The translations under genes were made by a program, and so were the position numbers. From Streptomyces sp. AM 2-1-1 (GTDB lineage Bacteria; Actinomycetota; Actinomycetes; Streptomycetales; Streptomycetaceae): a stretch of DNA of 64,000 bases. This document shows positions 34,130-39,121 of this stretch, one piece after another. The notes beneath the pieces are model-generated. The model worked only from the letters and a program-made list of their open reading frames with translations, did no database searches and was not told where the DNA came from. Location: the NCBI RefSeq assembly GCF_029167645.1, contig NZ_CP119147.1:2728001-2792000 (forward strand). The letters are read 5' to 3'. Numbering within the stretch: the stretch's first letter is position 1; every line of letters starts with the position of its first letter.

Positions 34130-35020
34130 TCAGCGGGCCGCGGCCAGGGAGAGCTGGTCCAGGGTGGCCGCCACCGCCGGGACCCGCGCCAGGTCCGGCA
34201 GGGTCAGGGCCACGATCTCGCGCTCGATGGCCGGCTCCACCGTCACGGTCACGGCCCCCTTGGGGCGTACCGACTCGATCGCCAGTGCGGGCAGCACCGC
34301 CACGCCGAGACCGGCGCCGACCAGTCCGATCACGGCGGGGTAGTCGTCGGTGGCGAAGTCGATGCGCGGGGTGAAGCCGGACTCCTCGCACACTTCCACG
34401 AGCTGGCGGCGGCAGCGGGGGCAGCCGGCGATCCAGGGTTCGCCGGCGAGTTCGCCGATGCCGATCGCGTCCGTCCCGGCCAGCCGGTGGTCCTCGGGCA
34501 GCAGCCCGATCAGCCGGTCCGCGAGCAGCGGGCGGACCACCAGGTCGTCCCACTCCACGCCCGGGTCGCCGTACCGGAACGCCAGGGCGATGTCGCAGTC
34601 TCCGTCCCGGAGCATCTCCACCGATCGCGGCGGTTCCGCCTCCACCAGCGAGACCTGGGTGCCGGGGTGCTCGGCGCGCAGCGCGGCCAGCGCACTCGGG
34701 ACGAGGGTGGAGCTCCCACTGGGGAACGAGACGAGCCGCACCCGCCCCGCGCGCAGCCCGGCGATGGCGGCGACCTCCTCCTCGGCGGCGGTCAGCCCCG
34801 CGAGGATGCCGGAGGCGTGCCGCACGAGGGCCTCGCCCGCCTGCGTGAGCCGCATCTCCCGGCCGGTACGGATCAGCAGCGGCGTGCCGGCCGACGTTTC
34901 CAGCGCCTTCATCTGCTGGCTGATGGCCGGCTGGGTGAAGCCCAGTTCGCGGGCGGCGGCGGAGAACGAGCCGGTGGTGGCGACGGCGCGCAGGACACGG
35001 AGATGGCGGGCTTCGATCAC
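34130..35020 (-). CDS. LysR family transcriptional regulator
   Basis: A 296-residue LysR-type regulator. The N-terminal winged helix-turn-helix (residues 1-60) reads LRVLRAVATTGSFSAAARELGFTQPAISQQM. The effector-binding domain (about 90-290) includes RVRLVSFPSGSSTLVPSALAALRAEHPG and GIGELAGEPWIAGCPRCRRQL. It uses GTG at 35020 with GGAGAG directly upstream. Such genes usually control a divergent neighbour; here the divergent position holds only a short frame that stops (35073), beyond which the DUF262-HipA cassette begins. The original target may have been lost. Confidence 0.9.
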   Translation of the reverse strand: MIEARHLRVLRAVATTGSFSAAARELGFTQPAISQQMKALETSAGTPLLIRTGREMRLTQAGEALVRHASGILAGLTAAEEEVAAIAGLRAGRVRLVSFPSGSSTLVPSALAALRAEHPGTQVSLVEAEPPRSVEMLRDGDCDIALAFRYGDPGVEWDDLVVRPLLADRLIGLLPEDHRLAGTDAIGIGELAGEPWIAGCPRCRRQLVEVCEESGFTPRIDFATDDYPAVIGLVGAGLGVAVLPALAIESVRPKGAVTVTVEPAIEREIVALTLPDLARVPAVAATLDQLSLAAAR

Positions 35021-35218
35021 CTCTCCACCATAAGCGTCGCTTCTGAACGTCGCGAATAATGGGGAGGTGACTTTGAGTGCCGCAGCGCCGCCGCCTGCGA
35101 TCCACTGCGGACATACTCAATGGCTCGAAGTTCATGGATCGGCTCGGATGCCGCGTGAAAGGATCTGCTTGCCGCAGGCCACACGGTCGAGATGAGCGCA
35201 CATGCCCTGGAGACAGCT
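35021..35218 (+). promoter_or_regulatory. LysR-side promoter region and truncated frame before the DUF262 gene
   Basis: AAGCG-T-CGCTT at 35032-35042 is a small inverted repeat of the kind LysR regulators bind. A strong ribosome binding site, GGGGAGGTGA at 35061-35070, precedes a TTG at 35073 that opens a frame of about 40 codons (MSAAAPPPAIHCGHTQWL and on) with no recognisable domain before its stop near 35195. This looks like the 5' stub of a former divergent gene cut off by the incoming cassette. GGAGA at 35209-35213 serves the DUF262 gene. Confidence 0.45.
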
Positions 35219-36952
35219 ATGACGACCGGCCCCGGCGGGCTCGACGCACAGCCCACTGCCACCACCTACGAGCTCGGCGACCTGATCCCTCTGGCGTGGG
35301 GCGGGCGAATCCGCGTGCCCCACTTCCAGCGCGACTTCCGCTGGCAGAGCAAGGACGTCCTCCGCCTGTTCGACAGCATCGTCAAGGGGTATCCCATCGG
35401 CAACCTGCTGCTGTGGGTCCGCAGGCAGCAGTCGGAGAAGTTCATGCTCGGCAAGCTCCGGCTGACGGCTCCGGCGCACGACGAGTCGCTGTGGGTCGTG
35501 GACGGTCAGCAGCGCCTGACGAGTCTCGCGAACGCGCTGAGCCCGGTGGGTCACGAGTACAAGCCCTTCAACGTGTACTACGACCTCGCGGAGAGGGAGT
35601 TCGTGGAGAGCCCCCACTCCCTGGAAGCGCACCACATCGCTCTCCCCGTGCTTTTCGATCTCAAGAAACTGCTCACCTGGTTCCGGACCGACGGCCTGGG
35701 CGCCGCCGATCACTTCGACGAAGCCGAGCGGGTGGCCACCGCACTGCGGCAGTACAAAGTCCCCGCCTACCTCGTCCGCCACGACGACAGAGCTGTCCTG
35801 ACCGACATCTTCGACCGCATGAACAACTTCGGCCGCAAGCTGAACCGCGGCGAGATCTTCTCCGCCCTGTACTCAGGTGAGGAAAAGGGCTCGGACGAGC
35901 GCCTGACTCTGGCCAAGATCTCCGACAACGTGGCCGCCAGGACCGGCTTCGGCAGTATCGATACCGGAACCATCCTCGCGTCGGTCCTCGCGCGTCGCGG
36001 CCCGGATCCCATGAGGGACATCCGTGTCGAATTCTCCCTGACCGGCCGCCGCACACAGTCGGAATTCCCGGACGAAGACGAGCCCACGGCCTTCTCCCAG
36101 GGAGAGGAAGCTCTGGTTCGCGCAGCCAATTTCCTGATCCAGGAAGCCGGAGTCCCCCACATCTCCCTGTTGCCCTACAGGGCCCTGCTCGTCACCCTCA
36201 CCCGGTTCTTCGCGCACTTCCCGCATCCGGGAAGGAACAACATCAGGCTGCTGCGAAGGCTGTACTGGCGGCTCTCCCTGGTCGGGCCCATGGTCTTCAG
36301 AGGGAGTTTCACGCAGTTCAGTCGCACCCTCGGCGGGAAGATCCGGCCCGGCGACGAGGAGGGCTCTCTCCACGCCATGCTGGCCACGATCGCCGATGCG
36401 GCCCCGGTCCGTCCCAGCGCCGATCGCTTCCGCACCAACGAGGCGACGACGAAGATCATTCTGAGTGCGTGGTGGTCGCTGGGCCCGCGTTCGCTCACCA
36501 CCGGCGAGGAACTGGACGCCCAGAGTCTGAACGCCCTGCTGGAGCAGGACAGGACGGCGGCGAATGCCGCTCCCATGATCTACCCCCGCTTCGGGGATGC
36601 GCGGTCCCGGTTGTCGCCCGCCAACCGCCTCTTCCTGCCGACCAACATGGACCCCGTATCAGAACTCCCGGCGGCCCTGGCGATGCAGCCGCCGGAAATC
36701 GAGGACAGGGATTGGGACGCGGTACTGGCCTCGCACCAGCTCAACCGCGAGGTCGCGGAGCTGGCCAACCGGGATCGCGATTCTTTTCTGGCGAAGCGCC
36801 AGGACACCATCCGGGAACAGTTGGTCCGCTTCATCGACCACATGGCGGAGTGGGACTACGAGGACACGCCCACGTTGGATTCTCTCGACTTGGACGATGA
36901 ATTCAACGAGAGCGAAGAGCCCGACATTCCGATTGTGCCCGAGGGGTACTGA
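35219..36952 (+). CDS. DUF262 (ParB/GmrS-like NTPase-nuclease) protein
   Basis: A 577-residue protein. Residues about 10-240 carry the DUF262 signature: RVPHFQRDFRWQSKDVLRLFDSI, GYPIGNLLLW, DGQQRLTSLANA at 95 onward, and FDRMNNFGRKLNRGEIFSAL. DUF262 is the ParB-like nucleotide-binding domain found in GmrSD type IV restriction and other defence proteins. The C-terminal half recalls DUF1524 helices (SRLSPANRLFLP), but the usual metal-binding HxxP reads MIYP, so nuclease function through HNH is doubtful. ATG 35219 has GGAGA 5 nt upstream; ATG 35192 would add nine residues. Base use is less GC-biased than neighbours. The HipA gene follows after 45 nt. Confidence 0.85.
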   Translation: MTTGPGGLDAQPTATTYELGDLIPLAWGGRIRVPHFQRDFRWQSKDVLRLFDSIVKGYPIGNLLLWVRRQQSEKFMLGKLRLTAPAHDESLWVVDGQQRLTSLANALSPVGHEYKPFNVYYDLAEREFVESPHSLEAHHIALPVLFDLKKLLTWFRTDGLGAADHFDEAERVATALRQYKVPAYLVRHDDRAVLTDIFDRMNNFGRKLNRGEIFSALYSGEEKGSDERLTLAKISDNVAARTGFGSIDTGTILASVLARRGPDPMRDIRVEFSLTGRRTQSEFPDEDEPTAFSQGEEALVRAANFLIQEAGVPHISLLPYRALLVTLTRFFAHFPHPGRNNIRLLRRLYWRLSLVGPMVFRGSFTQFSRTLGGKIRPGDEEGSLHAMLATIADAAPVRPSADRFRTNEATTKIILSAWWSLGPRSLTTGEELDAQSLNALLEQDRTAANAAPMIYPRFGDARSRLSPANRLFLPTNMDPVSELPAALAMQPPEIEDRDWDAVLASHQLNREVAELANRDRDSFLAKRQDTIREQLVRFIDHMAEWDYEDTPTLDSLDLDDEFNESEEPDIPIVPEGY

Positions 36953-36997
36953 TCGCCGTACGGAGACCGATCGACAACCGAACGGACAACTAGGATC

Positions 36998-38257
36998 ATG
37001 GGCGCCACCAGCGAGAATTATTATGCGGTTCTCCTTCATGGGCTACGCGTCGGGACGCTGTGTCAGAAGGGTGACTACACACGCTTCGTCATGAGCGATC
37101 GCTACCTTGACGACCCCCAGCGTTCCGTTCTGGGACTGCGATTCGAGGAGAATCTCAGAGCGCCCTACGCATCCGCCCTGCGGCTGCCCAAATGGTTCTC
37201 CAACCTCCTCCCCGAGGGTCCCCTTCGCGAATGGATCGCGGACGATCGGGGGGTCTCGCTGGATCGGGAGATGGAGCTCCTGGCCCAGGTCGGCCACGAT
37301 CTGCCGGGAGCCGTCCAGATCCTGAAGGCGGAGGGGCCCGAAGAGGACTGGGAGTGGCAGGACCCCTCCGCAGGAGGAGACGTGTCCGCGGGAGGAGCGG
37401 ACGGACCTTCGCCGTGGCGCTTCTCGCTGGCAGGGGTGGCGCTCAAGTTCTCGATGCTGTCGCACGGAGACCGGCTCACGGTGCCGACGGGGGGTGAGAT
37501 CGGCGACTGGCTGGTCAAGTTCCCCGACTACCGGCACGCCGATGTCCCGCGCAACGAGTACGCGATCATGTCACTCGCCAAGTCCGTCGGCATCGACGCG
37601 CCCGAGGTACGTCTGCTCCACCGTGACCAGCTCGAAGGGCTGCCCCATCGCATGTGGCCCAACTCCGAGGTGTGGGCGTACGCGGTGCGGCGTTTCGATC
37701 GCACGGCGGACAGGAAGCGCACCCGTATCCACATCGAGGACTTCGCACAGGTACGGGACAAGTACCCGCAGGACAAGTACATGTCGTCCTTCGAAACCGT
37801 CGCCGCCATCTCCTACCGCAAGCGGGACGTGGCCTCCCTTCGTGAGGCCGCGCGTCGAATCGCCTTCTCCGTGGCCGTCGGGAACGGCGATGCGCACCTC
37901 AAGAACTGGTCCCTCATCTATGCGGACGGCCGCAACCCTTCGCTGTCCCCGGTCTACGACCTGGTCTCGACCGTTCCGTACGCCCCGGGAGACGAGACGG
38001 AGGATCTGGGACTGAAATTCGGCGGAAGCAAGCGCTTCGACCGTGTCGGACTCTCCGCCTTCGAGCGGCTGGAGGGCGCCCTGGACCGGAGATTCGGCAC
38101 CACCGACGCCCATCTCGCCGCAGTCGCGGGCGACGTGGCACGAGCGGTCCGCGAGAACTGGGGCTCCCACGAAGAGGTGCTGACGACCAATCCCTCGCTG
38201 CACAGCGCAGTGAGTTCCTGGATCACCGAGTCGACCGCCCGTCTGCTTGCCGTCTGA
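36998..38257 (+). CDS. HipA family Ser/Thr kinase without a HipB partner
   Basis: A 419-residue full-length HipA homologue. The N-terminal subdomain (about 8-112) has VLLHGLRVGTL and WFSNLLPEGPLREWI. The kinase part has KFPDYRHADVPRNEYAIMSLAKSVGI, catalytic Asp298 in GNGDAHLKNWSL and metal-binding Asp321 in PVYDLVST, so it should be active. HipA kinases phosphorylate targets such as glutamyl-tRNA synthetase to arrest growth, and are normally checked by HipB, an HTH repressor encoded just upstream. Here no HipB-like frame exists; the upstream gene is DUF262. Codons such as AAT TAT TAT and CTA near the start are atypical for this genome, pointing to transfer. Confidence 0.9.
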   Translation: MGATSENYYAVLLHGLRVGTLCQKGDYTRFVMSDRYLDDPQRSVLGLRFEENLRAPYASALRLPKWFSNLLPEGPLREWIADDRGVSLDREMELLAQVGHDLPGAVQILKAEGPEEDWEWQDPSAGGDVSAGGADGPSPWRFSLAGVALKFSMLSHGDRLTVPTGGEIGDWLVKFPDYRHADVPRNEYAIMSLAKSVGIDAPEVRLLHRDQLEGLPHRMWPNSEVWAYAVRRFDRTADRKRTRIHIEDFAQVRDKYPQDKYMSSFETVAAISYRKRDVASLREAARRIAFSVAVGNGDAHLKNWSLIYADGRNPSLSPVYDLVSTVPYAPGDETEDLGLKFGGSKRFDRVGLSAFERLEGALDRRFGTTDAHLAAVAGDVARAVRENWGSHEEVLTTNPSLHSAVSSWITESTARLLAV

Positions 38258-38428
38258 CAGGACGATCGGACGCGGGCGCGGCTCCGCGTCGAGCGCCTTC
38301 CGCGATCGAGACGGCACTTCTGAGAAGACGCTCTCCCCAGCGGTCGTCCGCGTGCTGGTCGATGGGTGCGCCCGGCGGGTGGGGCCACCCTGCTCCGAAC
38401 GACTCACCCCGTACGACGCGCACGGTCT

Positions 38429-38440
38429 TAGCATCTCCCC
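38429..38440 (+). promoter_or_regulatory. Probable leaderless promoter of the MOSC gene
   Basis: TAGCAT at 38429-38434 is a good -10 element only 6 nt before the ATG at 38441, so transcription would begin at the start codon. There is no ribosome binding site upstream, in keeping with a leaderless message. Confidence 0.45.
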
Positions 38441-39121
38441 ATGCAGCTGCTGACCGTGAACCTCGGAACGCCCCGGTACTCCGCGCACTCCAGCGCTCCC
38501 GACGGCCTCACCGGCATCGACAAGCGGCCGGCCGCGGGCCCGGTACGGGTGACCGACCCCGGCCCCAAGGGGACCGGCGGCAGCGGTCTGGCCGGGGACG
38601 CGGTGTGCGACCTGCGCCACCACGGCGGGAGCGACCAGGCGGTGTACGCCTACGCACGGGAGGAGCTCGACGCCTGGGAGGAGAAGCTCGGCAAGCCGCT
38701 GCCCAACGGCATCTTCGGCGAGAACCTGACGACCCGCGGCGTGGTGGTCAGCGAGGCGCTGGTCGGCGAGCGGTGGCGGATCGGCCCGGACCTGGTCCTG
38801 GAGGTGACCGACGGCCGTATCCCGTGCCGGACCTTCGCGGGGCACCTCACGGAGGAGCGCTGGGTGAAGCGCTTCAGCGAGGAGGCCGCGACCGGCGCCT
38901 ACCTGCGGGTCATCACCCCGGGCTCCGTCCGGGCCGGGGATCCGGTCGAGATCGTCCACCGCCCGGACCACACGGTGACCGCGGCCCTGGCGTTCCGCGC
39001 GTTCACCGACCGCACCTTGCTCCCGAGCCTCCTCCCGGCGGGCGAGGCGCTGCACGCGGAGGCGCTGGCGGCGGCGCGGGAGTACGTGGCGGAGCAGGAG
39101 CTCCGAGGGGCCGTCGGCTGA
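38441..39121 (+). CDS. MOSC domain protein (YiiM-like)
   Basis: A 226-residue protein with the MOSC core: DAVCDLRHHGGSDQAVYAYAREEL, NGIFGENLTTRGV, LEVTDGRIPCRTFAGHL with the conserved Cys, and a basic C-terminal helix. MOSC domains bind the molybdenum cofactor and carry sulphur. YiiM-type proteins reduce N-hydroxylated bases in other bacteria. The ATG at 38441 has no Shine-Dalgarno but a -10 at the right place for a leaderless message. A strong terminator follows and separates it from the convergent transporter gene. Confidence 0.88.
   Translation: MQLLTVNLGTPRYSAHSSAPDGLTGIDKRPAAGPVRVTDPGPKGTGGSGLAGDAVCDLRHHGGSDQAVYAYAREELDAWEEKLGKPLPNGIFGENLTTRGVVVSEALVGERWRIGPDLVLEVTDGRIPCRTFAGHLTEERWVKRFSEEAATGAYLRVITPGSVRAGDPVEIVHRPDHTVTAALAFRAFTDRTLLPSLLPAGEALHAEALAAAREYVAEQELRGAVG

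Follow-up and report, generated by a model that had tools for sequence, protein, structure and literature searches.

A DUF262 gene paired with hipA in Streptomyces and across six phyla: an apparently undescribed two-gene unit with a candidate toxin-antitoxin-like function

Kinases of the HipA family can be controlled by partners other than HipB. In HipAD (also DS-6 or PDC-M66), a HipA-like kinase is restrained by a DUF3037/DUF1829 partner, and anti-phage activity was demonstrated by experiment (PMC13092281, PMC12548924). A survey of Hip kinases distinguishes ten gene organizations for HipA-like kinases, none with DUF262 as far as its main text goes, where "DUF" is absent (PMC8262856). The ptuXYZ system combines a DUF262 protein with a P-loop ATPase and a BECR-fold RNase, and its authors ask for experimental validation (PMC11980606), while a study of GmrSD neighborhoods has no HipA in its main-text table (PMC4619093). 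Here we analyze a locus of Streptomyces sp. AM 2-1-1 at which a DUF262 gene directly precedes hipA. It lies in a stretch of 64,000 nucleotides (nt) of contig NZ_CP119147.1 (positions 2,728,001 to 2,792,000), henceforth called the window, whose numbering is used throughout. No description of a DUF262-HipA pairing was found in the open PubMed Central literature, and in the one paper there that mentions DUF262 or GmrSD together with HipA, HipA appears in the references only. A preliminary description of the locus had regarded the pairing as possibly undescribed, which agrees with the literature found, although HipAD is a precedent for a HipA partner that is not HipB.

The two genes are read in the same direction across a gap of 45 nt, and both frames are open:

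35219..36952, plus strand: gene for a DUF262 (GmrSD_N) protein of 577 amino acids (aa), the proposed antitoxin and sensor, with matches to GmrSD_N and PDC-M55C
36998..38257, plus strand: complete gene for a HipA Ser/Thr kinase of 419 aa, the proposed toxin and effector

The kinase matches the Pfam models HipA_C (expectation value, E, 5.9e-44) and Couple_hipA (7e-20) and is the only protein of its genome with a HipA_C match. The DUF262 protein matches GmrSD_N (E 2.5e-26), its sole further Pfam row being below threshold (E 0.052). Its start was taken at the ATG at 35219, close to which most of 17 compared relatives begin; with the alternative ATG upstream of it, at 35192, the protein would have 586 aa. 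No gene for a helix-turn-helix (HTH) antitoxin (HipB) adjoins hipA at the locus, the DUF262 gene standing upstream instead; no genome-wide screen for HipB candidates was made. Gene order, spacing, completeness of HipA and the intact Asp298 and Asp321 had all been reported in the preliminary description, and coordinates, frames and residues were confirmed. A second DUF262 gene is present in the source genome (G000:C1:3945318-3945752, L002), with an open frame of 375 aa.

Scanning the DUF262 alignment against one genome per species yielded 165 relatives, the best 80 of which underlie the locus counts given here. In 73 of these 80 loci the next gene downstream, on the same strand, is hipA; 69 of the pairs are clean, and in four HipA is fragmented. 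Of the other seven loci, two are close to contig ends and five have DUF262 but no HipA. Six phyla host such pairs: besides Actinomycetota, these are represented by Leptolyngbya, a Thiosymbion symbiont, two Myxococcota, an acidobacterium and a Thermomicrobiales bin. Two Azospirillum plasmids, one of them typed as conjugative, also carry pairs, with a DUF262 identity of about 31%. Among 199 genomes of the same genus, five carry relatives of HipA (E at most 1e-30) and six carry relatives of the DUF262 protein; in the five, both genes are present and adjacent. Starting from HipA gives a concordant picture: members of this kinase group (E at most 1e-50) were found in 13 of 392 same-genus genomes, with a DUF262 gene in the 1.5 kilobases upstream in all 13. 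Across 296 genomes of the phylum, the two full-length group members (in the source genome and in G252) both have DUF262 beside them, four further HipA matches being short and C-terminal.

Spacing and sequence divergence also link the two genes. Relative to the DUF262 stop, hipA starts at a median of -4 nt, start codons having been chosen by rule; the genes overlap in 50 of the 69 clean pairs and lie within 60 nt in 66 of 69. Pairwise distances among the DUF262 proteins correlate with those among the HipA kinases at r = 0.892 over 72 pairs (the 69 clean pairs, the window and the two Azospirillum pairs) vs at most 0.16 in 1000 permutations, a mirror-tree control that leaves shared species history in the value. 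Both counts skip 11 of the 80 loci, namely L035 and L080 (contig ends), L036, L041 and L049 (HipA in pieces), L070 (both genes in pieces) and the five with DUF262 alone; L031 was kept, although a contig end cuts its HipA short. Some of the broken HipA genes may be assembly errors. L064, whose match ran past a stop, and L094 were left out of set A4.

The surroundings of the pair were compared with the corresponding site in relatives:

34130..35020, minus strand: LysR regulator (HTH_1 and LysR_substrate; synteny), left neighbor of the ancestral site, outside the module
35080..38427, no strand: inserted cassette holding the two genes only, between the LysR and MOSC genes, with approximate boundaries set by eye from intergenic comparison
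38441..39121, plus strand: MOSC-domain protein (PF03473; synteny), right neighbor of the ancestral site, outside the module

The MOSC gene was found in 24 of 31 relatives, the own genome counted. Of the 23 others, 17 have LysR and MOSC side by side, about 80 base pairs apart in 15 of those 17, and the remaining six have more distant MOSC genes and no LysR match in the stretch examined. One relative (G014) has an adjacent LysR-MOSC site and the module elsewhere in its genome. Because of the adjacency in 17 relatives, the cassette most simply entered as two genes only, apparently inside the promoter region of the MOSC gene. No third conserved gene was found among 578 flanking genes of the 80 loci (up to four per side, from a simple gene caller), where the largest cluster covers six loci, and no repeats at the cassette edges are among the repeats listed, which hold only short chance-like pairs inside it.

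Composition and site bear on two further statements of the preliminary description. It had found no HTH-type frame within several hundred bases, which is not strictly correct: the LysR regulator, with its HTH_1 domain, starts about 200 nt upstream. This gene is not HipB, and since it adjoins the MOSC gene in 17 relatives that lack the pair there, it belongs to the ancestral site. It had also described the codons of the pair as less GC-biased than those of the neighbors. The guanine-plus-cytosine (GC) content of the pair, 65.2% and 65.6%, is indeed below all seven neighboring genes (69.1-74.6%, a frame without its true start being used for the major facilitator superfamily gene); the GC content of third codon positions (GC3), 0.86 and 0.81 vs 0.83-0.96, overlaps that of the WhiB gene, the lowest neighbor at 0.83, and the codon-use difference is therefore only moderate.

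Two observations concern the edges of the cassette. Read by eye at 35070-35079 and 38428-38441, it appears to split a divergent LysR/MOSC promoter region, and the MOSC gene promoter may have been lost or changed by the insertion. Upstream of the DUF262 gene, a short stretch (35140-35180) that is conserved between the window and its close relatives L015 and L016, and not palindromic by eye, is possibly a promoter or operator.

The two genes thus form one conserved unit: they are recurrent neighbors, usually overlapping, co-evolving and apparently inserted alone. This bears out the two-gene cassette of the preliminary description, and DUF262-HipA neighbors, which it had suggested surveying, do recur in both directions. 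Such recurrence makes the pairing more than chance, and together with the co-evolution it rules out chance neighbors. A related possibility, that an unlinked HipB controls HipA and the DUF262 neighbor is incidental, might draw on the many HTH proteins of Streptomyces genomes; with a single HipA_C gene in the genome, a two-gene insertion, co-occurrence in both directions and r = 0.89, we consider it highly improbable.

The kinase retains its functional residues:

37025..37321, plus strand: HipA N-terminal domain (Couple_hipA), residues 10-108, Pfam match
37424..37447, plus strand: Gly-rich loop from Ser143 to Lys150, both residues present in 72 of 72 homologues
37889..37891, plus strand: catalytic Asp298 in NGDAHLKN, present in 70 of 70 homologues covering the region
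37958..37960, plus strand: metal-binding Asp321 in YDLVST, present in 70 of 70 homologues covering the region

Within residues 143-150, the Gln of LAGVQLKFS members, which is the usual residue at that position in HipA kinases, is Ala or Gly in most of the loop variants listed. Fifteen plasmid-borne hipA genes without DUF262, two of which encode identical proteins, each have an HTH gene immediately upstream, so that DUF262 occupies the HTH-gene position of the related hipA operons examined (n = 15); these were picked, not exhaustively, from 234 matching plasmid records, and two more loci lacked annotation. In a tree of 71 DUF262-paired and 16 HipB-paired kinases (without L031, where HipA is incomplete, and the unannotated plasmid loci L145 and L149), 65 DUF262-paired kinases including that of the window form one group (support 100/99). 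E. coli HipA and L153 have long branches and an unsure place. The other six DUF262-paired kinases stand apart in the best tree, which requires two changes, and 22% of 200 bootstrap trees require one. As the resolution of these six is weak, the partnership of DUF262 with this HipA group is, judging from the tree, one acquired once or twice.

In the DUF262 protein, the two halves differ in the state of their motifs:

35363..35377, plus strand: RLFDS motif, residues 49-53 (among 72 homologues, all have the closing Ser, 71 the Asp and 41 the complete RLFDS)
35501..35515, plus strand: DGQQR motif, residues 95-99, with predicted nucleoside triphosphate (NTP) binding and hydrolysis, kept in 72 of 72 homologues
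36572..36586, plus strand: PMIYP, residues 452-456, a place that recalls the nuclease motif DHIYP of BrxU but has other residues for Asp-His (located by motif rather than by residue-level structural alignment)

RLFDS has been named as a nucleotide-binding motif (PMC8565348) and DGQQR assigned a predicted role in NTP binding and hydrolysis (PMC4619093, PMC8565348). In the C-terminal half, the column of the HNH His holds His in none of the 72 homologues and the preceding Asp or Glu in 3 of 72, and the motif [DE]H[ILVMF]xP is absent from this half in all 72. GmrSD_N was matched by all 32 DUF262 proteins tested and GmrSD_C by none of the 32 at E 0.01. The model fold resembles BrxU, with a loose match (root-mean-square deviation 13.7, Foldseek TM-score 0.33-0.35). 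Because the likeness of fold persists and the motif is gone, the HNH half is likely a decayed nuclease domain whose active site seems to have been lost. On a small Sulfitobacter plasmid (L136 2114-3766), a DUF262 protein has a sub-cut-off GmrSD_C match (E 0.018) in its C-terminal part, where the HipA-linked proteins seem decayed.

These motifs bear on which of the two proteins acts on the cell. The DUF262 protein could itself be the effector, its ParB/Srx-like half working as a nuclease or NTPase, with HipA as a regulator switching it on or off by phosphorylation. That half keeps its motif, DGQQR residues may take part in cleavage according to PMC4619093, and 5 of 80 loci have DUF262 without HipA. 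We nevertheless judge this arrangement improbable, given that all 72 homologues lack the HNH His and that hipA is the second gene, the toxin position of hipBA, the 15 annotated relatives examined being in HTH-hipA operons.

Instead, we slightly favor a toxin-antitoxin-like two-gene switch, probably serving abortive anti-phage defense. The preliminary description had suggested a toxin-antitoxin or abortive-infection system, with DUF262 sensing or restraining and HipA arresting growth, a view that the present results support in part. For binding, inhibition, trigger, target and defense role we infer the following scheme. HipA would be the effector, stopping growth by phosphorylating an essential host protein, most likely an aminoacyl-tRNA synthetase if the known HipA and HipT are a guide. 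The role of HipB would fall to the DUF262 protein: made first, from a gene usually overlapping hipA, it would bind HipA and keep it inactive. Patterned on a GmrSD/BrxU-type type IV restriction enzyme, with an intact ParB/Srx-like nucleotide-binding half and an HNH half without the catalytic motif, it would sense rather than cut. A trigger, such as modified or foreign DNA or an altered nucleotide pool, would cause a nucleotide-driven rearrangement and release HipA; in BrxU, nucleotide binding can alter the oligomeric state of such proteins (PMC8565348). That the DUF262 protein controls growth arrest appears quite probable. The more specific proposal, a nuclease-less type IV restriction enzyme turned HipA antitoxin, in which modified or foreign DNA is recognized by way of nucleotide binding by DUF262 and the response is to free the kinase and arrest growth rather than to cut the DNA, is tentative.

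For the defense role, the chances seem evenly balanced. The case in its favor comes from the kinship of the parts, since DUF262 occurs in GmrSD, BrxU, SspE, ptuX and PDC-M55, and HipA with DUF3037 is anti-phage. The pair might also be conceived as no more than a type II-like toxin-antitoxin or addiction module, in which DUF262 neutralizes HipA for self-maintenance or dormancy and phage sensing plays no part. Its patchy distribution (13 of 392 same-genus genomes), its presence on the two Azospirillum plasmids, of which one has been typed as conjugative, and the few defense genes among the nearest neighbors would suit such a module. The preliminary description had raised co-occurrence in defense islands: the pair recurs, yet there is little island signal, the 129 nearest flanking genes (from 73 paired loci, genes over 700 aa left out) matching ten PADLOC models with one gene each and no matched background set, and their Pfam families being mostly ordinary among the 25 of 119 listed. 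A mere neutralizer, on the other hand, would not need DUF262, which is common to type IV restriction and other defense proteins, and HipAD, the nearest functional precedent, is anti-phage; we regard the addiction module as rather unlikely.

Several further results weigh against a sensor-antitoxin switch in defense. DUF262 stands alone, with no HipA in the surrounding stretch, at L037, L038, L051, L082 and L086; a sixth same-genus genome (G084) has only a 30%-identical DUF262 protein without this HipA, and three of the 296 phylum genomes (G013, G325 and G371) lack such a HipA but have DUF262 matches, which are weaker and mostly partial. Of 77 informative loci, 8 have DUF262 with HipA lost or broken, and the reverse was seen in 0 of 14, which is the direction expected of an antitoxin but is not significant (p = 0.35). 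No natural DUF262-HipA fusion is among the 120 of 448 matches listed, which are of DUF262 size. No homologue was found in viral contigs, and a phage collection gave one weak partial DUF262 match, HipA not having been searched there. A conserved upstream operator was not seen. The sparse defense context, the shared species history in the distance correlation and the loose fit to BrxU count on the same side, as does the middling confidence of the structure models (mean predicted local distance difference test scores of 72.9 and 64.2).

Should the tentative reading of a nuclease-less restriction enzyme turned antitoxin be correct, DUF262 would be a general sensor that swaps effectors, among them an HNH nuclease, an ATPase with RNase and a HipA kinase. 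If DUF262 restrains HipA, modified-DNA sensing would be linked to translation-targeting kinases, a testable case of one sensor exchanging effectors. The pair may also explain some HipA genes annotated without HipB.

The locus can be compared with several described systems. Like HipAD, it consists of two genes and joins a HipA-family kinase to a partner that is not HipB; unlike HipAD, that partner is a DUF262/GmrSD_N protein, with no DUF3037 or DUF1829 match. In PADLOC, PDC-M66 is not among the matches of the window HipA even at E up to 1; the strongest, to PDC-M03A, is weak (E 1.5e-5), and an Azospirillum HipA has no match at E 1e-8. With hipBA of E. coli and Shewanella the pair shares a HipA with N-terminal and kinase domains, a conserved loop Ser and the kinase as second gene of the operon, the DUF262 gene taking the place of the HTH antitoxin gene. 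It differs from HipBST, where the kinase lacks the N-terminal domain and HipS is separate, in that Couple_hipA lies inside the window HipA. GmrSD and BrxU type IV restriction proteins likewise have a DUF262 domain with DGQQR, whereas here the HNH His is gone, GmrSD_C is undetected and a separate kinase gene follows.

The DUF262 protein also matches PDC-M55C over nearly its full length (E 1.2e-59, residues 27-552), as do all 32 proteins tested, but with a score of 200 bits vs 417 for the Paracoccus protein. HipA, which has no PDC-M55 match, stands in place of PDC-M55A and PDC-M55B, neither of which is among the 129 nearest flanking genes at E 1e-15, and no PADLOC system name is common to the matches of both proteins when protein models are compared. 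PDC-M55 proper (AAA ATPase, PDC-M55B, DUF262) occurs on Paracoccus yeei and Leclercia plasmids (L134 1663-5662 and L135 1015-5515), the Leclercia copy with an IS1 element inside its middle gene. Its layout resembles the published ptuXYZ and may perhaps be the same system. Like ptuXYZ, the present pair sets a DUF262 protein without a DUF1524 domain beside a toxin-like protein; unlike it, the pair lacks the three-gene layout with ATPase and RNase and has a kinase (PMC11980606). Present in six phyla or more, and with a partner that differs from the HipA antitoxins of the Hip survey, the pair would be an eleventh gene organization for Hip kinases. It is thus a widely shared, apparently undescribed combination in which a HipA kinase has a partner of a new kind, and for which HipAD and ptuXYZ/PDC-M55 are the closest precedents.

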